Positions 2,328 through 38,888 of a DNA stretch of 38,888 bases are shown here, in pieces. A model generated the notes under the pieces. It had not been told where the DNA came from. It did no database searches and was given only the letters and a program-made list of their open reading frames with translations. Positions within the stretch are counted from its first letter, which is position 1; each line of letters begins with the position of its first letter. The DNA lies in the NCBI GenBank assembly GCA_028289565.1, contig JANQPE010000047.1:1-38888 (forward strand). The letters run 5' to 3'. The position numbers and the translations under genes were made by a program. This stretch comes from Parerythrobacter sp. (GTDB lineage: Bacteria > Pseudomonadota > Alphaproteobacteria > Sphingomonadales > Sphingomonadaceae).

Positions 2328-3803
2328 TCACTTCTTTTTTAACATATCTCGCAGATCAGGCGGCAGCGTGTCGGGATCGACCCCCGCACCGGCACCAAGG
2401 CCAGGTAGCTGGCCTGCGCCACCAGCCGGCGGACCGCCTGCTCCCCCGAGTCCCGGCATCCCGCCGCCACCGAACAGCGCGCCAAGGCCCTTGAGCCCGC
2501 CCATCTTCTTGATCTGCTTCATCGCGCGCGACATTTCCTTGTGCATCTTCAGCAGTCGGTTCACGTCCTGCACCGCGGTACCCGATCCCCCCGCCACGCG
2601 CCGTTTGCGCTTGGCGTTGAGCAGCGCGGGGTTCTCACGCTCCTTGGGCGTCATCGAACCGATGATCGCATCCATATGGACCAGAACCTTGTCGTCGACG
2701 CCGCTCTGCGCCATTGCCGCCTTGGCCTTCTTCATGCCGGGCAACATCCCCGCGAGCATGCCGAGGCCACCCATCTGGTTCATCTGGTTGAGCTGCATGC
2801 GCAGGTCGTTGAGATCGAACTTGCCCTTGGCCATGCGTTTGGCCAGTGCTTCGGCATCTTCTTCCTTGATTGTCTGCGCGGCCTTTTCGACCAGCGAGAC
2901 GACATCGCCCATGCCAAGGATGCGGTCGGCCACGCGCTTGGGGTGGAAAGCTTCGAGCGCATCGAGCTTTTCCCCGGTCCCGGCAAACTTGATCGGCTTG
3001 CCCGTGACATGACGCATGGATAACGCCGCACCACCGCGCGCATCACCATCCATCCGGGTGAGGACTACACCGGTGAGCGGCACTTCCTCGGTGAAGCTCT
3101 TGGCAACGTTGACCGCATCCTGGCCCGTGAGCGAGTCGACCACCAGCAGCACTTCGGTCGGTGCAGACACACCCGCCACCGTTTTCATTTCAGCCATCAG
3201 GGCTTCGTCGACATGCAGGCGACCCGCGGTATCGAGCAGCAATACATCGGCAGCTTGCAACTTGGCCGATTCCATCGCCCGGCGCGCGATATCGACCGGC
3301 TGCTGGCCTTCGATAATCGGCAATGTAGCGACCTCGACCTGCTCACCGAGTACCGCCAATTGCTCCTGCGCGGCGGGACGGTTGACATCGAGCGACGCCA
3401 TCAACGACTTGCGGCCGTGCTTTTCCTTGATGAACTTGGCGAGCTTGGCGGTAGTGGTCGTCTTACCCGAACCCTGCAGGCCGACCATCATGATCACGAC
3501 CGGCGGCTTGGCCTCCAGCACCAGCCCCTCGGTTTCTTCCCCACCAAGCATCTCGACAAGTTCGTCGCTGACGATCTTGACGACCTGCTGGCCAGGCGTG
3601 ACCGATTTGAGGACTTCCGACCCGATCGCCTTCTCGGTGACCGTATCGACAAACCGGCGGACCACGGGCAGCGCGACATCGGCTTCGAGCAGCGCGATCC
3701 GTACCTCGCGCATCGCATTGCGCACATCCTGCTCGGAGAGCGCACCACGACCGCGCAGCTTGTCGAAGACGCCGCCGAGGCGATCGGACAGAGAATCAAA
3801 CAT
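2328..3803 (-). CDS. ffh: Signal recognition particle protein Ffh
   Basis: The 491-residue SRP54 GTPase binds 4.5S RNA and signal sequences of nascent membrane proteins and delivers them to FtsY. Domains in order: N domain (residues 1-85), GTPase G domain with the P-loop GLQGSGKTTTTAKLA near residue 108, DTAGRLHVD and TRMDGDARGG, then the methionine-rich M domain with LNQMNQMGGLGMLAGMLPGM and a Gly/Pro-rich tail. The start MFDSLSDRL at 3803 is chosen over an in-frame upstream start at 3860 because it follows AGGAGT with good spacing and matches the family N-terminus. It heads the ffh-rpsP-rimM unit. Confidence 0.97.
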   Translation of the reverse strand: MFDSLSDRLGGVFDKLRGRGALSEQDVRNAMREVRIALLEADVALPVVRRFVDTVTEKAIGSEVLKSVTPGQQVVKIVSDELVEMLGGEETEGLVLEAKPPVVIMMVGLQGSGKTTTTAKLAKFIKEKHGRKSLMASLDVNRPAAQEQLAVLGEQVEVATLPIIEGQQPVDIARRAMESAKLQAADVLLLDTAGRLHVDEALMAEMKTVAGVSAPTEVLLVVDSLTGQDAVNVAKSFTEEVPLTGVVLTRMDGDARGGAALSMRHVTGKPIKFAGTGEKLDALEAFHPKRVADRILGMGDVVSLVEKAAQTIKEEDAEALAKRMAKGKFDLNDLRMQLNQMNQMGGLGMLAGMLPGMKKAKAAMAQSGVDDKVLVHMDAIIGSMTPKERENPALLNAKRKRRVAGGSGTAVQDVNRLLKMHKEMSRAMKQIKKMGGLKGLGALFGGGGMPGLGGAGGPPAGGAGQLPGLGAGAGVDPDTLPPDLRDMLKKK

Positions 3804-4734: not shown

Positions 4735-4912
4735 TCGCAAATCCTATCGTAAATCTGTCTGTGCTGCCCGCCGCTGTGACGGGGCTGGAATCCATGATAC
4801 TTGATGGGTGCTCGATCACCCTCAATCAAGAGCGCCGCGCGCCTTGCCATAGGCATGTGGCACTGTCAAAAGCCGCGTCGCGTTTTCCGCCCGAGCCCGA
4901 AAGACGATCTGC

Positions 4913-6238
4913 TTGACAAACCACCCGATCCCGCACCGATATGCCCCACAAGGTCCGCTCAAGGGCACGATCCGCGTCCCCGGCGACAAGTCCATCAGCC
5001 ATCGCGCGCTGATGCTGGGTGCACTGGCCGTAGGCGAAACGCGTATTTCTGGGTTGCTCGAAGGCGAGGACATACTGGCAACCGCCGAAGCGATGCGGGC
5101 ACTGGGCGCACGGATCAAGCGTGGCGAGGACGGCAACTGGGTGGCCCACGGCGTCGGCATCGGCGGACTGCTCCAGCCGCGACAGGCACTCGATATGGGC
5201 AACAGCGGCACTTCCACGCGCCTCCTGATGGGCCTCATCGCGAGCCACGGCATCATGGCTGCCTTTACCGGCGATGCCAGCCTGTCGAAGCGCCCCATGG
5301 ATCGTGTGATCGAACCACTGTCGCGAATGGGCGCAAGCTTTACCCCTTCCCCCGGCAGCACCCTGCCACTGGCGATGGAAGGTAGCCTGCCTGCCGTACC
5401 GATCGAATATCGTCTGCCGGTCGCCAGCGCACAGGTCAAAAGCGCCGTATTGCTCGCAGGGCTTAACACGCCGGGTGTGACGACGGTGATCGAGCCGATC
5501 CCCACGCGCGACCATTCCGAACGGATGCTACGCGGCTTCGGCGCCCAAATCGAGGTGGAAGAAACCAGTGCAGAGCGCGTCATTCGCCTGCATGGCGAAG
5601 CGGAACTGCAGCCGCAATCCATCACCGTACCGGGCGACCCGTCCTCGGCGGCGTTTTTCACTGTGGCGGCCTTGCTAGTCGAGGGGAGCGAACTGATCAT
5701 CGAGAATGTCGGCCTCAACCCTACCCGTGCGGGACTGTTCCGCGTGTTGCGTGAAATGGGGGGCAGTATCGAGGAACTGAACACGCGCGAGGTGGGCGGC
5801 GAACCGGTCGCCGACTTGCGGGTAAGGCATTCACCGCTTTCCGGGATCAATGTGGATCCCGCCATTGCGCCGAGCATGATCGACGAATTTCCCGTGCTGT
5901 TCGTTGCCGCTGCACTGGCAAACGGCACGACCCGCACGAGCGGGATTGGCGAATTGCGAGTCAAGGAAAGCGATCGCCTCGCCGCGATGGCCAGCGCACT
6001 ATCAACGATCGGCGCACAGGTGGAGGAAGGCAAGGACGGCCTTGTCATCGAGGGCACAGGCGGCGAACCTCTTGCCGGAGGTGGGCCGGTTGAGACCCAT
6101 CTCGACCACCGTATCGCGATGAGCTTGGCGGTGGCCGGCCTGGTCAGCCGCGATGGCGTGGAAGTGGACGACACCCGCCCGGTTGCCACCAGTTTCCCCG
6201 ACTTCGAAGCACAGTTTCAAGAGATAGGTACGACCTAA
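4913..6238 (+). CDS. aroA: 3-phosphoshikimate 1-carboxyvinyltransferase (EPSP synthase)
   Basis: The 441-residue enzyme transfers enolpyruvate from PEP to shikimate-3-phosphate, the sixth shikimate-pathway step. Visible motifs are VPGDKSISHRA (Lys26), the NSGTSTRL substrate loop (residues 97-104) and LRVKESDRLAAMASAL near the C-terminus. GDKSISHR places it nearer the class II enzymes of Agrobacterium CP4 type, but the loop has glycine at 99 where CP4 has the tolerance-linked alanine. The only sensible start is TTG 4913; no in-frame ATG precedes MLGALAV, which would remove the catalytic lysine. The ribosome site is weak. Its stop overlaps the next ATG (TAATG), giving an aroA-membrane protein-cmk unit. 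Confidence 0.95.
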   Translation: MTNHPIPHRYAPQGPLKGTIRVPGDKSISHRALMLGALAVGETRISGLLEGEDILATAEAMRALGARIKRGEDGNWVAHGVGIGGLLQPRQALDMGNSGTSTRLLMGLIASHGIMAAFTGDASLSKRPMDRVIEPLSRMGASFTPSPGSTLPLAMEGSLPAVPIEYRLPVASAQVKSAVLLAGLNTPGVTTVIEPIPTRDHSERMLRGFGAQIEVEETSAERVIRLHGEAELQPQSITVPGDPSSAAFFTVAALLVEGSELIIENVGLNPTRAGLFRVLREMGGSIEELNTREVGGEPVADLRVRHSPLSGINVDPAIAPSMIDEFPVLFVAAALANGTTRTSGIGELRVKESDRLAAMASALSTIGAQVEEGKDGLVIEGTGGEPLAGGGPVETHLDHRIAMSLAVAGLVSRDGVEVDDTRPVATSFPDFEAQFQEIGTT

Positions 6239-28907: not shown

Positions 28908-30239
28908 TTACTTGGACGCTTCTTCGGTCCCCGCCGTGCCCATCGCTGCATCGACCAGCCCGCTGCGCATCATCCACCAGAACAGGATGATTCCCGGGAA
29001 CGCCAAGACGGTGGTTAGCAGATAGAAATTCACATAGCCCATAGCTTCGATCAGCGATCCGGCAGTAGTTCCCGTCAGCAACCTCCCCACGATACTCGCG
29101 CCCGCCGAGATCAGCGCATATTGCGCCGCTGTGAAACGTAGGTCACACAGTGCCGAGAAGTAGGCCACTACCACCACGCCGCCATACCCGCTGGCGAAAT
29201 TCTCAAACCCGATTGCAGCCGCCATGCCAATGTTCGAATGGCCCGCTGCCGCCAGTGCAGCGAAACTGACGTTTGAAATCGCCATCAGGATCAGCGCGAT
29301 CAGAACCGAGCGCTTGAGGCCCAGCTTAGCGTAAATGATCCCACCGATGAACACGCCGATGATCAGCGCCCAGAAGCCTACGCCGACGTCATAGATCGCT
29401 ATCTCGTCATTGGTGTAACCGAGGTCTTCGAACAGTAGACGGAAGGTCAGGTTCGCCAGTGTATCGCCGATCTTGTGGACGAGGATGAATAGCAACACGA
29501 GCCACGCGCCGTTTCGCTTGAAGAACTCGACAAAGGGATCGGCGATTGCGCGTGCCTTATCGGCCACGCTGGTACGCTCTGCCGGGGCCTTATGGCGTGG
29601 TGGTTCTCCAAGAATGAGCGCAGTCAGCATCGCCGGGAGCGCAAATACCGAACACACTGCATAGGCGATGGTCCAGTCACTCCTCGCTGCAACCACGAGC
29701 GCCAGCGCACCAGCGCTCGCCGCGCCGATCCTCCAGCCATATTGGCTCATCCCAGATCCGACACCGAGCTGATATGGCTTCAGTGTCTCAATCCGGTAGG
29801 CGTCGATCACTATGTCGAAAGTCGCGCCGGCTGCTCCTAACATCACCGCCGAGATCGCGACCCAGATGATATCTTCTTTAGGGTCAGCGAGCGCAAGATT
29901 GATTGTCGCGGTGATAACCAGCAAGCCAATCACCAACATCCACGAAACGCGCATTCCCAGTCGTCCGATAACCGGTAGCTTCACGCTATCTATGATCCAC
30001 GCCCACAGCCATTTGAAGTTGTAGACGAGGAAAGCGAGCGTGAACGCCGTGACGGTCGCTTTTTCGATCCCGTCCTGCGCCAGGCGGGTCGTCAAGGTCG
30101 CGGCGAGCAGTGCGAAGGGAAAGCCAGACGACACCCCCAGAAAGAACGCGGCGAGCGATTCTTTCTCCAAATAGGGTTTAACCGAGTCCCACAAACCACG
30201 TTCCTCCACCGGAACAGTTTGCTCCATGCCTTCCGCCAT
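28908..30239 (-). CDS. ampG: AmpG-like MFS permease
   Basis: A 443-residue integral membrane protein with about 12 helices. KESLAAFFLGVSSGFPFALLAATL and DAYRIETLKPYQLGVGSGMSQYGWRIG match AmpG-type transporters, which import anhydro-muropeptides for cell-wall recycling. LVHKIGDTLANLTFRLLFEDLGYTNDEIA in the second half also fits. No recycling genes lie nearby, so the substrate is inferred. ATG 30239 is used; ATG 30227 is possible. It diverges from the Rieske oxygenase gene with a 72-bp shared promoter region. Confidence 0.88.
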   Translation of the reverse strand: MAEGMEQTVPVEERGLWDSVKPYLEKESLAAFFLGVSSGFPFALLAATLTTRLAQDGIEKATVTAFTLAFLVYNFKWLWAWIIDSVKLPVIGRLGMRVSWMLVIGLLVITATINLALADPKEDIIWVAISAVMLGAAGATFDIVIDAYRIETLKPYQLGVGSGMSQYGWRIGAASAGALALVVAARSDWTIAYAVCSVFALPAMLTALILGEPPRHKAPAERTSVADKARAIADPFVEFFKRNGAWLVLLFILVHKIGDTLANLTFRLLFEDLGYTNDEIAIYDVGVGFWALIIGVFIGGIIYAKLGLKRSVLIALILMAISNVSFAALAAAGHSNIGMAAAIGFENFASGYGGVVVVAYFSALCDLRFTAAQYALISAGASIVGRLLTGTTAGSLIEAMGYVNFYLLTTVLAFPGIILFWWMMRSGLVDAAMGTAGTEEASK

Positions 30240-33598: not shown

Positions 33599-35905
33599 AT
33601 GAACGACCCCGTCTCCCTTCCCTCCGGACCCGGCAGCAACGCCGTACCGCCCTATGCCGCAAGGCTGAACGAGCCACAGCGTGAGGCGGTGCTGACAACC
33701 GAGGGTCCGGTGCTGATGCTGGCCGGCGCGGGAACGGGCAAGACAGCCGCGCTGACCGCACGCCTCGCGCACCTCGTCGCCATGCGGCTCGCCTGGCCGA
33801 GCGAGATCCTGTGCGTCACCTTCACCAACAAGGCCGCGCGCGAAATGCGCGAACGCGTTGGCGGGCATATCGGCGAAGCGGTCGAAGGGATGCCCTGGCT
33901 GGGCACCTTCCATTCGATCTGTGCGAAAATGCTGCGCCGCCATGCCGAACTGGTCGGGCTGGAGAGCAATTACACGATCATCGACACCGATGACCAGCTA
34001 CGCCTGCTCAAGGCGCTGATCATCCAAAATGAGCTGGATGAAAAACGATGGCCCGCTCGCCAGCTTGCCGCGCTGATCGACCGCTGGAAGAATCGCGGGC
34101 TCAATCCGGGTGATCTGGATGCAACGGAGAACGAGAGTTTCGCCGACGGGCGAGGCCGACATTTCTACACGCTTTACCAGGACCGATTGAAGGCGCTCAA
34201 TGCCTGCGATTTCGGCGACCTGATGCTGCATATGCTCAATATCTTCCGCAGCGAACGAGATGTGCTCGCGCAATACCAGAACCGCTTCAGTTATATCCTG
34301 GTCGACGAATACCAGGATACCAATCAGGTCCAGTATCTCTGGCTGCGCCTGCTGGCGCAGGAGCGCAAGAATATCTGCGTGGTTGGCGACGACGACCAGT
34401 CGATCTATTCCTGGCGCGGGGCGGAGGTCGCCAATATCCTGCGCTTCGAGAAGGATTTTCCGGGCGCGAAAGTGATCAAGCTGGAGCAGAATTACCGTTC
34501 CACCCCGCATATCCTCGCCGCTGCATCGGGCCTGATCCGCGCCAACACCCAACGCCACGACAAGACGCTGTGGACCGCGACGAATGGCGGCGGCAAGGTC
34601 CGCATGATCGGGGTGTGGGACGGCCCGGAGGAAGCACGCCGGATTGGCGAGGAGATCGAACGACTGGAGGGCGAAGGCGCCGACCTTGACGAAATCGCTA
34701 TCCTCGTGCGCGCGCAATATCAGACGCGCGAATTCGAGGACCGGTTCATTCAGATCGGGGTCAATTACCGGATCATCGGCGGGTTCCGCTTCTACGAACG
34801 CGCCGAAATCCGCGATGCCCTGGCCTATCTGCGCGTGATCGCGCAACCGCAGGACGACCTCGCTTTCGAACGCATCTACAACCAGCCCAAGCGCGGACTG
34901 GGCACGAAGACGCTGGAAAAGATGCACCAGCATGCACGACGCACCGGCCTGCCCCTGGCTGCCGCCTCGCTCCAGCTCGCAGACAGCGACGAGTTGCCCA
35001 AGCGTGCTTCTGGCACGATCGCGGCACTGATGGGCCAGTTCCTGAAATGGCGCGAAGAAAGCGAGAAGGTCACTCCGTCCGAATTGCTCCGCACCGTGCT
35101 CGAGGAAAGCGGTTACGACGCGATGCTCGAAAACGACCGCACCGCCGAAGCCAAGGGGCGGCAGGAAAACCTCTCCGAACTCGCCCGCGCGATGGAGGAA
35201 TACGAAACGCTCGGTTCGTTTCTAGAACATGTCGCGCTGGTGATGGACAACGATGCGCGCGACGATGGCGAAAAGGTCACGATCATGACCATGCACGCCG
35301 CCAAGGGACTCGAATTCGACAATGTCTTCCTGCCCGGCTGGGAGGAAGGCGTATTCCCCAGCCAGCGCGCACTCGACGAAGGCGGGCTGGCATCGCTGGA
35401 GGAGGAACGCCGCCTCGCCTATGTCGCGATCACCCGCGCCAAGCGCCACTGCACCGTGCTCCATGCCGCCAACCGGCGCATTTACGGCCAGTGGACCAGT
35501 TCGATCCCCAGCCGTTTCATCGAGGAACTGCCGGAGGAGAACATCGAGCAGGAAACCACGCTGACCGGCGGCAAGTCGCTGTGGCAGGCGAACTGGAGCG
35601 AACAGGACGATCCCTTCGCCCATGTCTCCACGGCCCGGCCCGACCGCTCCGGCGCACGCGGCCCCGGCTGGCAGCGCGCGCTATCTACCGGCTACGAAAC
35701 CAGACCTGCCCGGATAAAGGAAAACCGCCGCTCCGCCGCCAGCTTCGCCGCCAAACCGCGCACCGACATCGCCATCGGCGCGCGCGTGTTCCACGACAAG
35801 TTCGGCTACGGCACGGTCACCGACCAGGAAGGCAACAAGCTGGAAATCGAATTCGAGAAAGCGGGGACGAAGCGGGTGATCGACAGTTTCGTGACGGTGG
35901 CCTGA
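33599..35905 (+). CDS. uvrD: UvrD/PcrA-family ATP-dependent DNA helicase
   Basis: A 768-residue superfamily 1A 3'-5' helicase. LNEPQREAV (Q motif), AGAGTGKT (Walker A, about residues 42-49), VTFTNKAAREMRERV, DEYQDTNQVQ (motif II), GDDDQSIYSWRGA (motif III), KLEQNYRST (IV), TMHAAKGLEFDNVFLPG (V) and VAITRAKRH (VI) occur in order. The final 60 residues (ARVFHDKFGYGTVTDQEGN...) form the Tudor-like PcrA/UvrD tail that binds RNA polymerase. Role: nucleotide-excision and mismatch repair, replication restart. It ends 9 bases from the convergent radical SAM gene. Confidence 0.95.
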   Translation: MNDPVSLPSGPGSNAVPPYAARLNEPQREAVLTTEGPVLMLAGAGTGKTAALTARLAHLVAMRLAWPSEILCVTFTNKAAREMRERVGGHIGEAVEGMPWLGTFHSICAKMLRRHAELVGLESNYTIIDTDDQLRLLKALIIQNELDEKRWPARQLAALIDRWKNRGLNPGDLDATENESFADGRGRHFYTLYQDRLKALNACDFGDLMLHMLNIFRSERDVLAQYQNRFSYILVDEYQDTNQVQYLWLRLLAQERKNICVVGDDDQSIYSWRGAEVANILRFEKDFPGAKVIKLEQNYRSTPHILAAASGLIRANTQRHDKTLWTATNGGGKVRMIGVWDGPEEARRIGEEIERLEGEGADLDEIAILVRAQYQTREFEDRFIQIGVNYRIIGGFRFYERAEIRDALAYLRVIAQPQDDLAFERIYNQPKRGLGTKTLEKMHQHARRTGLPLAAASLQLADSDELPKRASGTIAALMGQFLKWREESEKVTPSELLRTVLEESGYDAMLENDRTAEAKGRQENLSELARAMEEYETLGSFLEHVALVMDNDARDDGEKVTIMTMHAAKGLEFDNVFLPGWEEGVFPSQRALDEGGLASLEEERRLAYVAITRAKRHCTVLHAANRRIYGQWTSSIPSRFIEELPEENIEQETTLTGGKSLWQANWSEQDDPFAHVSTARPDRSGARGPGWQRALSTGYETRPARIKENRRSAASFAAKPRTDIAIGARVFHDKFGYGTVTDQEGNKLEIEFEKAGTKRVIDSFVTVA

Positions 35906-35914
35906 CTTCCCGTT

Positions 35915-37024
35915 TCAGGCCGCCGTCGGAGCAATTCGCTGCTCGGTTTCCAGCCGATCCGGCTCGCGAGGGACGGACTCTATCGGATCGAGCACATCCT
36001 CGGGAATATAACCGAGATCGTAGAAAGTCTGGCACATGCTGTAGGATGCCGCGAAATCGTCTTTCGACTTGTAGGCAGACAGCCTGCAGGCTCCGCCGCA
36101 CTCGGCCTTCACCGGACATCGGCCGCATATACCTGTCAGATCGTGGTGATCCATGGAACGGAGCCGTTCGAACAGCGGAGCAGTCAGCCACAGTTCGTCA
36201 AAGGGCGTTTCGGTGACATTGCCGACATAAAGCGACTCGTCGGCCCCTGCTACGCCGCAGATCGTCACGTTCCCGTCATATGTCACACCGCAATAGGATT
36301 TCGTCCAGCCGCAACTGGGGCTACGGATTGGAAGAACGTCTTCGGCATGCAGCAACAGCGGGGGAATGTTAAGGAAGACCCTCGATCCTTGCTGCCGGAG
36401 TTCATGACAAAACTGCCGCAACCGGAGTATTTCCTCCACGTCCAAAGCATCGGGAGCCAGGTTCGGTCCACGCCCGTTGTAAGGGTTGAGCAACGAAAAC
36501 CGGACAGGCACGTTCAGATCGCGCGACAACCGCGCGAGAAACGGGACATCGGCAAGGTTGCGCTTGATAATGGTCGCGTTCACCTGGACGTCGATGCCGG
36601 CCTCGCGCAAGGCGGCGATCTCGCTCACTGTTTCCTCATGAGCACCTTCGCGCCCGCGGATATCGTCATGATTGGCCCGATCGCCATCGAGTGAGATCAG
36701 AATGTTGCAATCGGCGAACTCTGCGACACGAGCAACGCGTTCGGGGCTGATGAGCGTGCCATTGGAAACAATCGAGAGTGCAAATCCCTGATCGGCGAAG
36801 GCCTCGAGTATTTCCAGCCAGTCCTTGCGAACGAAAACTTCACCACCCGAAATGATCACCCGCTTGCCACCGACGCTGGCAGCCTCCGCGGCAAGCTTCC
36901 TGATCTGCGGGATGTCGAGGTCGGTCGTCTTCTCCTTGACTGCATTGATATAACAGAACGAGCAACTGAGGTTGCAGGTATTGGTCACATTGAAATGCAG
37001 TGTGTGAAGTCGTGCCTGCGCCAT
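35915..37024 (-). CDS. Radical SAM/SPASM peptide maturase (predicted)
   Basis: A 369-residue enzyme. The radical SAM cluster motif CNLSCSFC (Cys17, 21, 24) lies in an N-terminal barrel with SGGEVFVRKDW and VSNGTLIS. The C-terminal SPASM domain has its full set: C-x12-G-x4-C (CGWTKSYCGVTYDG then NVTIC), CGRCPVKAECGGAC (Cx2Cx5Cx3C) and a last Cys in SYSMC, for two auxiliary [4Fe-4S] clusters. Such enzymes make crosslinks or other radical modifications in peptides or activate sulfatases and dehydrogenases. ATG 37024 follows GGAGGAG; a longer frame to 37075 lacks this. It lies 80 bases after a gene with duplicated Cys motifs, its likely substrate. No separate RiPP recognition domain is evident. 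Confidence 0.92.
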   Translation of the reverse strand: MAQARLHTLHFNVTNTCNLSCSFCYINAVKEKTTDLDIPQIRKLAAEAASVGGKRVIISGGEVFVRKDWLEILEAFADQGFALSIVSNGTLISPERVARVAEFADCNILISLDGDRANHDDIRGREGAHEETVSEIAALREAGIDVQVNATIIKRNLADVPFLARLSRDLNVPVRFSLLNPYNGRGPNLAPDALDVEEILRLRQFCHELRQQGSRVFLNIPPLLLHAEDVLPIRSPSCGWTKSYCGVTYDGNVTICGVAGADESLYVGNVTETPFDELWLTAPLFERLRSMDHHDLTGICGRCPVKAECGGACRLSAYKSKDDFAASYSMCQTFYDLGYIPEDVLDPIESVPREPDRLETEQRIAPTAA

Positions 37025-37104
37025 AGGATTTCTCCTCCGCTCAAATGACGGCATCGGACCAGAGCCATGAGGCATCGACGCCGGCCTCGGCTATACGGAC
37101 TCGA

Positions 37105-37473
37105 TCAGCCGCGCCCGATCAGGCGGGTGGCTATCGAATCGATCACCTCGTCGCTGATCGCGGGATTGACGACCATGTCTTCGGGAGCAGTCGCCGCGCT
37201 GGCACCACAAGCTACGCACCAGTCGGCATTGAGGTCGGCGCTCGAGAGGCGTTCGGACAGCCGCGCGACAAAGTCGTCACGGATCAGGCCTTTGACGATC
37301 TCGGGATCCTGAGAAATCTGTTGCTCGACGACCCGTGGCAATTCGGGTCCGGATGCAGCGCTCGCACCGCAGGCAACGCACCAGTCCGAATTCGCGCGGA
37401 CACGTGGGCTTGAAATGGCATCGCGAATGGCCGCCGAATCAATCTTCAGGGCTTTTTCGTTCGCTTTGGGCAT
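37105..37473 (-). CDS. Predicted RiPP precursor with two DWCVACGASAA cores
   Basis: A 122-residue protein I cannot match to a named family. It starts at ATG 37473 after a perfect AGGAGG. An N-terminal leader-like helix (KALKIDSAAIRDAI) leads to core 1, DWCVACGASAA (residues 30-40), then a charged helical segment (DPEIVKGLIRDDFVARL). Core 2, the same 11 residues (84-94), follows, then a second helix (ISDEVIDSIATRL) and GRG. The only four cysteines and only two tryptophans of the protein are in the cores. The adjacent radical SAM/SPASM gene makes a thioether or aromatic crosslink plausible. Alternative: an unmodified metal-binding protein with two CxxC sites. Confidence 0.75.
   Translation of the reverse strand: MPKANEKALKIDSAAIRDAISSPRVRANSDWCVACGASAASGPELPRVVEQQISQDPEIVKGLIRDDFVARLSERLSSADLNADWCVACGASAATAPEDMVVNPAISDEVIDSIATRLIGRG
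37192..37224 (-). repeat. Core repeat 2 (DWCVACGASAA)
   Basis: Residues 84-94 of the predicted precursor, preceded by NA and followed by TAPE. It matches core 1 in all 11 residues, though six of eleven codons differ. Confidence 0.85.
37354..37386 (-). repeat. Core repeat 1 (DWCVACGASAA)
   Basis: Residues 30-40 of the predicted precursor, preceded by NS and followed by SGPE. The pairing of flanking residues (N-x-core-x-x-PE) shows the repeat extends beyond the core. Confidence 0.85.
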
Positions 37474-37494
37474 GCTTTCCTCCTCTGGGTTAGC

Positions 37495-37720
37495 CAGTAA
37501 ATATCAAAGCAAGCCAAAGGGATCGACAGCATTTTATTTTATAGAATGCATAGGAAGAGTCGAGTCGATTTATTATTACAGGTATTTTGGTTTAATGTAA
37601 AATGTTTTGATTCAATAACGAATCTACATTGTTATATTGTAGTAAAGTCAGTATGATATTTTAATTTATAATATTTATCATTTTGAAGAACGAAAATCCT
37701 GATATAATGCCAGGTATTAG
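37495..37720 (-). promoter_or_regulatory. AT-rich leader upstream of the RiPP operon
   Basis: About 225 bases dominated by A and T, with runs such as ATTTTATTTTATAG and TTTTAATTTATAATA, in a chromosome that is otherwise strongly GC-rich. No gene is visible. It lies directly upstream of the precursor start and ends near the terminator of the neighbouring helicase. It may hold the promoter (a TATAAAAT box lies on the minus strand near 37540), an H-NS/Ros/MucR-like silencing target, or be the edge of a transferred segment. Confidence 0.55.
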
Positions 37721-37762
37721 GCGGTAATTGCCCTCGAGAATCTGACAGCAAGGTATTTTCGA

Positions 37763-37788
37763 AAAACCCCGCCTGCAGGCGGGGTTTT
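37763..37788 (-). terminator. Strong palindromic terminator of the DEAD-box helicase gene
   Basis: AAAACCCCGCCTG and CAGGCGGGGTTTT are exact complements with A- and T-runs on the two sides, so it can work in both directions. It lies 110 bases after the helicase stop on the minus strand and isolates the helicase from the RiPP operon. Confidence 0.8.
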
Positions 37789-37897
37789 CGCGTTCCCGGG
37801 ATTCTCCATGCGCGCGCGACGCACAATTGCGGGGGCCGTGGTTTTCAACTTGCGCGAAACGCAAGTATCGACCCTGACAAGCAGTTTCGGAAAAAAA

Positions 37898-38888
37898 TCA
37901 GTTCGCGCCGAAATCCAGGAAGCCGGGTTTCGGGCCATTCCACTCGCCAGGCTCGACCGGGCCATCATCAGCATCACGGCGTTTCTTACGCGGTTTGGAT
38001 GCGGTTTCCTTCCCGGCTTTATTCTCGGGCTTGCCGGACCGCTTCCTTGAAGGTTTTTCACACTCCGGCTCGGCCGGAGCCTCGCCAGCATCTTTGCCCT
38101 TCGCCCTTTCATGGCGCTTGGGCCTGCCCCCTTTTTTCGGTTCGTCCACCAGTTCGACACGGACGTCGCCTTTGCCGAATACCGGGATTTCGGTCTTGGT
38201 CAGCTTCTCGACATTCCCGATCGCCTCGGCGTCGTCCTCGGCAACCAGCGTGAAAGCGCGACCTTTCGCTCCGGCGCGGCCGGTACGGCCAATCCGGTGA
38301 ACATAATCGTCCGGATGCCACGGGGTGTCGAAATTGAACACATGGCTGACACCCTTGATGTCGAGTCCGCGCGCGGCAACGTCGCTGGCGACGAGGATGT
38401 TGATGTCGCCCGATTTGAACCGGTCGAGTTCGCGGATACGGCTCGTCTGGTCCATATCGCCATGAATTTCACCCGAAGCGAAGCCACTGCGCTGCAATAC
38501 CTTGTTGAGTTCGCGCACGGTCGTCTTGCGATTGGCGAAGATGATTGCGGTTTCGACATGGTCGTTGCGCAGCAGCCATTGCAAGGTGTCACGCTTCTGG
38601 CGCGCCTTCACCGGTACCTTGAATGCGGTGATATCCTTGTTCGTGCTCGCCGCGCGACTGACTTCGATCCGCTTGGGATTGCTGAGGAACGCCTTGGCCA
38701 GTTTCTCGATCGGCGGCGGCATCGTCGCCGAAAACAGCATCGTCTGGCGCGTTTCGGGAAGCTTGGAACAGATGAACTCGATATCGGGTATGAAGCCCAT
38801 GTCGAGCATCCGGTCGGCCTCGTCGATCACCAGCAACTCACATCCGTTGAGCAGGATCTTGCCGCGCTCGAACAAATCCATCAGCCGG
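37898..38888 (-). CDS. DEAD-box ATP-dependent RNA helicase (partial, 5' end outside window)
   Basis: About 330 codons remain; the N-terminal part with the Q motif and Walker A is beyond the window. Visible motifs are VIDEADRMLDMGF (DEAD, II), FSATMP (III), AIIFANRK (IV), VASDVAARGLDIKGVSHV (V) and HRIGRTGRAG (VI). The C-terminal 90 residues are a Lys/Arg/Glu/Pro-rich basic tail (RPKRHERAKGKD and KPRKKRRD) common in RhlE/DbpA-like alphaproteobacterial helicases and likely to bind RNA. Probable role in ribosome assembly or mRNA turnover. Confidence 0.93.
   Translation of the reverse strand, partial: RLMDLFERGKILLNGCELLVIDEADRMLDMGFIPDIEFICSKLPETRQTMLFSATMPPPIEKLAKAFLSNPKRIEVSRAASTNKDITAFKVPVKARQKRDTLQWLLRNDHVETAIIFANRKTTVRELNKVLQRSGFASGEIHGDMDQTSRIRELDRFKSGDINILVASDVAARGLDIKGVSHVFNFDTPWHPDDYVHRIGRTGRAGAKGRAFTLVAEDDAEAIGNVEKLTKTEIPVFGKGDVRVELVDEPKKGGRPKRHERAKGKDAGEAPAEPECEKPSRKRSGKPENKAGKETASKPRKKRRDADDGPVEPGEWNGPKPGFLDFGAN

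Follow-up and report, generated by a model that had tools for sequence, protein, structure and literature searches.

Organization of the locus

The sequence analysed here (the window) is a stretch of 38,888 nucleotides from the genome of a Parerythrobacter sp. It contains two genes on the minus strand, a putative precursor and, 80 bp downstream of it, a radical SAM/SPASM enzyme. This is the arrangement reported in the first-pass annotation, and both open reading frames were confirmed; the features of the locus are collected in Table 1. The start of the enzyme was taken to be the ATG that follows the GGAGG motif; a longer open reading frame begins at 37075.

Table 1. Features of the gene pair and of the adjoining DNA (window coordinates)
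Feature	Position	Strand	Basis
Putative precursor, 122 aa, two DWCVACGASAA cores	37105..37473	-	ORF reading; homologues in L002 and L003
Core 1, DWCVACGASAA, residues 30-40	37354..37386	-	Back-translated pattern search
Core 2, DWCVACGASAA, residues 84-94	37192..37224	-	Back-translated pattern search
Radical SAM/SPASM enzyme, 369 aa, putative maturase	35915..37024	-	ORF; Pfam and NCBIfam profiles; orthologue alignment
Radical SAM cluster motif C17-x3-C21-x2-C24	36953..36976	-	Sequence; kept in 3/3 orthologues
SPASM-region cysteines C238, C245, C256, C300, C303, C309, C313, C331	36032..36313	-	Sequence; all kept in 3/3 orthologues
Likely precursor ribosome-binding site AGAGGAGGA	37478..37486	-	Read from sequence
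Likely enzyme ribosome-binding site GGAGG	37034..37038	-	Read from sequence
AT-rich region upstream of the pair, GC 0.35, promoter-like sites	37500..37799		Best site 37601-37572, minus strand; consensus matches only

Between positions 35800 and 37950 we counted 9 promoter-like sites over both strands, all of them consensus matches only, against a mean of 1.1 (sd 1.0) in shuffled sequences. A perfect palindrome, AAAACCCCGCCTGCAGGCGGGGTTTT, occupies positions 37763-37788 and is probably the terminator of the neighbouring DEAD-box helicase gene; the single Rfam match, at chance level, falls within that same gene.

The precursor and its two cores

The four Cys and two Trp of the 122-residue protein (residues 31, 32, 35, 85, 86 and 89) are all located inside the two identical 11-residue cores, as originally noted, and the homologous precursors from an Erythrobacter and a Paracoccus genome (see below) are likewise free of Cys and Trp outside their cores. 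Scanning the window with the back-translated core recovered the two exact matches and no further place even when 2 mismatches were tolerated; shuffling the window 100 times gave no match to the pattern. Both copies are contained in a 51-nt direct repeat with 76% identity; since 4 of their first nine codons differ, and all of these differences are synonymous, they point to selection on the core peptide rather than to a recent copy of the DNA.

None of the listed matches of the precursor in NCBIfam and Pfam reached its cut-off. The CVACGAS core scored 22.9 bits against the ferredoxin-type model NF058577 (cut-off 65), and the precursor scored 12.5 bits against the thioredoxin/DsbD family model (cut-off 330), and thus by score does not belong to that family. 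The stretch ADWCVAC (37207-37227) is identical to the active-site stretch of the C-terminal thioredoxin domain of DsbD, in a match that is not significant (E = 0.57) and whose clearly shared part is confined to these residues; this identity is probably the outcome of convergence. PHROGs gave a weak match extending over 13 residues. AlphaFold2, with 3 sequences, returned no confident fold (mean pLDDT 44); the segments flanking the cores are predicted to be helical, at low confidence.

The radical SAM/SPASM enzyme

The enzyme passes the Pfam gathering thresholds for both Radical_SAM (88.2 bits vs 29.5) and SPASM (37.7 bits vs 21.5), and the CX3CX2C motif and the predicted auxiliary-cluster cysteines are all present, in agreement with the initial description of both sets as intact. 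Its placement was based on NCBIfam scores. Among the best 25 of its 102 matches (at E = 1) no family attained its cut-off: the top match, ScmF (TIGR04251), covers nearly the full length of the protein (residues 6-343) with 163.4 bits vs a cut-off of 400, and is followed by AhbD (157 bits), NirJ2 (156), WgkB (141) and TIGR04053 (134), all far below their cut-offs, and further down, among others, by StsB (115), MftC (108) and PqqE (97). ScmF, AhbD, NirJ2, AhbC and NirJ match all three orthologues at E = 1e-15 or better, and the same is true of WgkB, TIGR04053, StsB, MftC and PqqE. Models for sulfatase maturases, for QhpD-type (dehydrogenase) maturases and for SCIFF maturases are absent from the 25 best-scoring families; a grouping of the enzyme with sulfatase or dehydrogenase maturases, which the first-pass annotation had named as evidence against its own proposal, was therefore not seen. 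Judged by sequence, this is a SPASM enzyme outside the named equivalogs found among the best 25 of 102 NCBIfam matches, and the early impression that the core fits no named family is borne out, for the enzyme too, within the matches given above.

The solved structures closest to the enzyme in sequence are SkfB and then PqqE, and Foldseek ranks SkfB, PqqE and SuiB at the top for its predicted model, which is weak (mean pLDDT 55.8, with a poor SPASM part). PHROGs returned general radical SAM families. As previously remarked, Pfam recognises no recognition domain in the enzyme; a PqqD homologue is present in the Erythrobacter and Paracoccus host genomes, on contigs other than those carrying the pair, and none was found in the window's genome, which is 85% complete.

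Relatives, pairing and rarity

Relatives were collected from GTDB genome contigs by means of six octapeptide patterns taken from the enzyme, a scan that relatives lacking all six patterns would escape. Of the 8 loci recovered two are close and six are at most 31% identical. In the Erythrobacter MAG (L002) the enzyme is 85-86% identical to that of the window and the precursor has 123 residues and two cores; in the Paracoccus MAG (L003) the enzyme is 61% identical, and the precursor, of 81 residues with one core, lies in a different genomic context. The precursor is found directly upstream of the enzyme, on the same strand, in the window and in both close orthologues (at least 61% identity), two of these three pair loci having been found through the enzyme. 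The arrangement by which RiPP systems are recognised, a modifying enzyme beside a short precursor, is accordingly present at these three loci and not beside the distant enzymes examined, and the proposed pairing holds in two contexts with the core unchanged. A profile of the precursor detected one precursor gene in each of the three pair-bearing genomes (an extra Paracoccus match, with E = 0.37, is not significant). A precursor widespread without the enzyme would have spoken against the original proposal; no precursor homologue without the enzyme was found in the genomes sampled.

The pair is rare in the genome sets that we searched, which are overlapping samples. The enzyme was detected in 1 of 385 genomes of the class (E = 1e-45), in 1 of 397 from the window's family (E = 1e-40) and, with the profile, in 1 of 1 genome of the window's genus, in each case the window's own. 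The starting genome was likewise the one genome recovered with the enzyme profile in the genera of the Paracoccus (1/125) and Erythrobacter (1/114) genomes, with the precursor search among relatives (1/98), and with the precursor profile in the family of the Paracoccus genome (1/198). Across the phylum the enzyme profile recovered 3 of 398 genomes, corresponding to the window's genome and two Rhizobium-type enzymes. The suggestion to search the sphingomonads first was thus answered in two ways: the precursors found, in the window and in both close relatives, neighbour the enzyme, but the system is not sphingomonad-wide, occurring in one of the 397 family genomes and also in one Paracoccus MAG.

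Several candidates for further members were set aside. With one mismatch allowed, the core pattern was found in 3 of 235 genomes, and the two hits besides the window's genome are not precursors: in one (L060) the near-match sits in a thioredoxin-like protein, and in the other (L061) in an open stretch of 43 residues that looks like no gene. The six remote enzymes (L004-L009) were not counted as members, as the core is absent from the open reading frames checked at these loci, namely those on the plus strand in the vicinity of the match that either exceed 200 residues or, if smaller, carry a motif of the C-x(1-3)-C type. The Rhizobium-type enzymes (27% identity) were also rejected, as no core protein occurs in about 3 kb of L013 and L014 or in four translated coding sequences of L010. 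In L010 the relative (4905-6173), itself a radical SAM/SPASM protein, is carried by plasmid p42d together with nolL; in L010, L013 and L014 it directly follows the gene of an adenine phosphoribosyltransferase, about 4.5 kb before prs (ribose-phosphate diphosphokinase), and may be part of a nucleoside-type pathway that is so far undescribed. Among plasmids there was no precursor and no DNA match to the pair, and neither the two profiles nor the core pattern detected a relative in viral contigs; phage records contained low-identity enzymes only (29 records, of which the 5 listed are 22-25% identical). No paper describing a two-gene DWCVACGAS system was found among titles and abstracts of the open-access literature, and on the basis of this literature and of the protein family libraries the pair is probably undescribed.

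The DNA between the two genes differs among the three loci. In L002 a strong hairpin followed by a U-rich stretch is found between precursor and enzyme (3599-3701; z = -4.75), and could possibly be an attenuator that keeps the precursor in excess. The hairpin is moderate in L003 (z = -2.03) and there is none in the window (z = -0.38); attenuation was dropped as an argument.

Genomic context

In both the window and L002 the pair is situated between uvrD and a DEAD-box helicase gene that converge on each other. A uvrD gene was located in 28 further genomes, and for 20 of them (L040-L059) the corresponding site (35905-37898 in the window) was compared. At these 20 sites neither the precursor nor the enzyme had a tblastn match at E = 1e-5; the distance from the end of uvrD to the aligned end of the helicase ranges from 117 to 2704 bp, part of which is the unaligned tail of the helicase, and the open reading frames, as read by eye, differ from site to site, with L046 (117 bp) being nearly empty. 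The stretch between uvrD and the helicase holds variable cargo. The Paracoccus pair is flanked by a gene for polyribonucleotide nucleotidyltransferase and, at its other end, by a zinc alcohol dehydrogenase-type gene. Given the variable site and the different context in Paracoccus, the pair appears to behave as accessory DNA, which was probably transferred.

Pfam scans of 18 neighbouring proteins (8 in the window and 10 in L002 and L003) recognised no protease and named no heme or siroheme family. The remark that no protease is visible nearby is in keeping with these scans; the parallel remark on transporters stands for the immediate neighbours, but needs to be amended for the wider window, where an MFS-type gene (28911-30239), the one transporter recognised among the 18 proteins, lies beyond uvrD about 5.7 kb from the pair, without evidence of belonging to it.

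Conservation of the core and drift of its flanks

In the alignment of the three precursors the core columns are invariant. All five cores in the three genomes keep DWCVACGAS; the Paracoccus core ends as DWCVACGASSS, and those of the window and of Erythrobacter as DWCVACGASAA, so that the claim of identical 11-residue motifs holds for the latter two and is reduced to the first nine residues in Paracoccus. Compared two at a time over their first nine codons, the five cores show 2-6 synonymous and 0 nonsynonymous differences in each case; the zero is in part a result of construction, because an exact search for DWCVACGAS was used to find the cores, but none of the three proteins has a Cys or Trp anywhere else. 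Outside the cores, 28 of 104 aligned codons are nonsynonymous between the window and Erythrobacter, and 48 of 70 between the window and Paracoccus. With the cores masked the Paracoccus precursor still aligns to residues 42-119 of the window's precursor, at a score that 0 of 2000 shuffles attain. For the flanks of core 1 no relation was detectable to those of core 2 (score attained by 737 of 2000 shuffles), nor was there a match in Paracoccus (435 of 2000); it can be recognized from these two comparisons that it is the nine-residue core itself that recurs.

In many antimicrobial RiPPs the core is variable and the leader is kept. Here the core is frozen while the flanks drift, which is the reverse trend, and for this reason the product is probably bound to a single chemical task, as a cofactor, a metal or redox center, or a signal, rather than being a diversifying antimicrobial. 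The core is unchanged between two alphaproteobacterial lineages, yet the pair was seen in three genomes only, suggesting that horizontal transfer has spread a chemical function that does not change; an unchanged core across lineages is unusual in so rare a system.

Interpretation of the gene pair

We consider it likely that the pair represents a minimal RiPP-type radical SAM system in which a fixed core is modified. The sequences show the genes, their conservation and their pairing, whereas the reaction, its recognition step, any leader cleavage or export, and the fate and role of the product are inferences. The 122-residue protein would be the substrate, with the segments beside the cores probably serving recognition; the SPASM enzyme would reduce and cleave SAM, abstract a hydrogen within each DWCVACGAS segment, and then form a bond in the core, for which a thioether contributed by one of the two Cys is the best candidate. 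If this reading holds, such an intramolecular thioether is the leading outcome, about evenly balanced against all others; some other change, for example a heterocycle, is possible at a clearly lower level, and a Trp-centered C-C crosslink is less likely still. Because no protease or transporter was recognised as travelling with the pair, the product may stay within the intact protein. The adjacent, co-oriented genes at three loci in two contexts, the invariant core, the kept radical SAM and SPASM cysteines and the closeness in sequence to SkfB and PqqE count in favor of a RiPP system; the facts that there are only three loci, that tetrapyrrole enzymes are among the top NCBIfam scores, that the distant enzyme relatives have no core protein in the stretches read, that Pfam finds no recognition domain in the enzyme, that no protease or linked transporter was recognised among the scanned neighbours, that the intergenic hairpin is missing from the window, and that the core resembles ferredoxin and thioredoxin CxxC motifs (all below cut-offs) count against it. 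Should the core prove to be modified, the radical SAM peptides would gain a precursor family whose internal Asp-Trp-Cys-Val-Ala-Cys-Gly-Ala-Ser core is frozen, and its chemistry may be testable with just two genes.

The resemblance of the core to CxxC motifs can be given a different meaning: the precursor could act without modification, as a small metal, Fe-S or redox protein that uses its CxxC motifs, with the enzyme as its redox or cluster partner or acting on another substrate. The weak ferredoxin-type match to CVACGAS, the identity of ADWCVAC with the DsbD active-site stretch, and the presence of one of the two foreign near-matches of the core in a thioredoxin-like protein are all consistent with such a role, which we nevertheless regard as unlikely, considering that every family match is below its cut-off, that the Paracoccus form has two Cys only, and that Asp, Trp, Val, Ala, Gly and Ser are as invariant in the core as Cys; the lack of a confident AlphaFold2 fold, which is weak evidence, goes in the same direction. 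A combination of the two ideas, quite unlikely in our estimate, sees in the core a free-standing copy of a thioredoxin-type active site (ADWCVAC), which the radical SAM enzyme would lock by a covalent bond, making a new redox or metal cofactor that is borne by the protein and retained in its intact form; if true, this would be a cofactor-making system without leader cleavage, protease or exporter.

The NCBIfam scores raise the question of whether the substrate of the enzyme is instead a small molecule, a tetrapyrrole for example, as for NirJ, AhbD or the ScmE/F group, with the small protein as a carrier or accessory. ScmF, AhbD, NirJ2, AhbC and NirJ are indeed among the best scores of the window enzyme and extend to all three orthologues, and the surroundings of the Rhizobium plasmid relative, between the phosphoribosyltransferase and diphosphokinase genes and followed by two hypothetical proteins with no CxxC motif, are compatible with small-molecule chemistry. 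These scores, however, amount to 127-163 bits vs cut-offs of 400-650, peptide maturases (WgkB, StsB, MftC, PqqE) score in an overlapping range, and the scan of 18 neighbouring proteins named no heme or siroheme family; a small-molecule substrate is in our opinion very unlikely. A sub-case that overlaps with the RiPP-type reading is that the enzyme epimerises, heterocyclises or otherwise alters the core without a crosslink. SPASM-type formation of thiooxazole on a Cys substrate (PMC11002830) and of cyclopropylglycine (PMC9062424) is reported; nothing speaks directly against this sub-case, although Cys, Trp and Asp in a fixed short motif suit crosslinking at least equally, and we consider it rather unlikely.

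Comparison with known systems

A modified core in a RiPP-type system can be compared with several described families. By score the enzyme is closest to ScmF of SynChlorMet, from which it is separated by the distance of that score to the cut-off. The SynChlorMet cassette usually contains ScmE and a PqqD homologue, whereas next to the pair neither another radical SAM gene nor a homologue of PqqD was recognised. As in the ranthipeptides (freyrasin PapA/PapB, SCIFF/CteB), a radical SAM/SPASM enzyme accompanies a small protein with Cys motifs. According to PMC8172795 the PapB rule is Cys-x3-Asp, with Cys first; unlike this, the core has its Asp before the Cys (D-x-C-x2-C), and within the conserved DWCVACGAS no Asp, Glu or Asn follows a Cys. 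The difference from SCIFF lies in the enzyme, whose 25 best NCBIfam families include no SCIFF model.

Triceptides, in which SPASM enzymes join Trp to residue i+2, offer a likeness of another kind, in that the Trp at core position 2 could fit a three-residue W-C-V cyclophane; the i+2 partner in the core is Val, not one of those named in PMC11002830 (Asn, Arg, Asp, Ser). For a product that is kept in the protein there is a precedent in the gamma subunit of quinohemoprotein amine dehydrogenase (QhpC), where the radical SAM maturase QhpD forms thioethers inside a whole protein; the subunit has Cys-Asp, Cys-Glu and Cys-Trp links (PMC8172795). The present system differs from it in that the scanned neighbours yielded no subunit of an amine dehydrogenase, no protease of the subtilisin type and no flavoenzyme (the dehydrogenase-type gene next to the Paracoccus pair is of the zinc alcohol type), and in that there is no QhpD-type model among the 25 best NCBIfam families of the enzyme. 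Bufferins are a looser precedent for long Cys-modified precursors (PMC12452194). Nearest in kind among the systems found are the peptides of SSN cluster 59, a radical SAM system with no assigned product (PMC9062424): the motif there is Asp-Cys and a recombinase gene is present, as opposed to Asp-Trp-Cys-Val-Ala-Cys-Gly-Ala-Ser and no recombinase recognised here, and both systems consist of few genes with a repeated motif that contains Asp and Cys.
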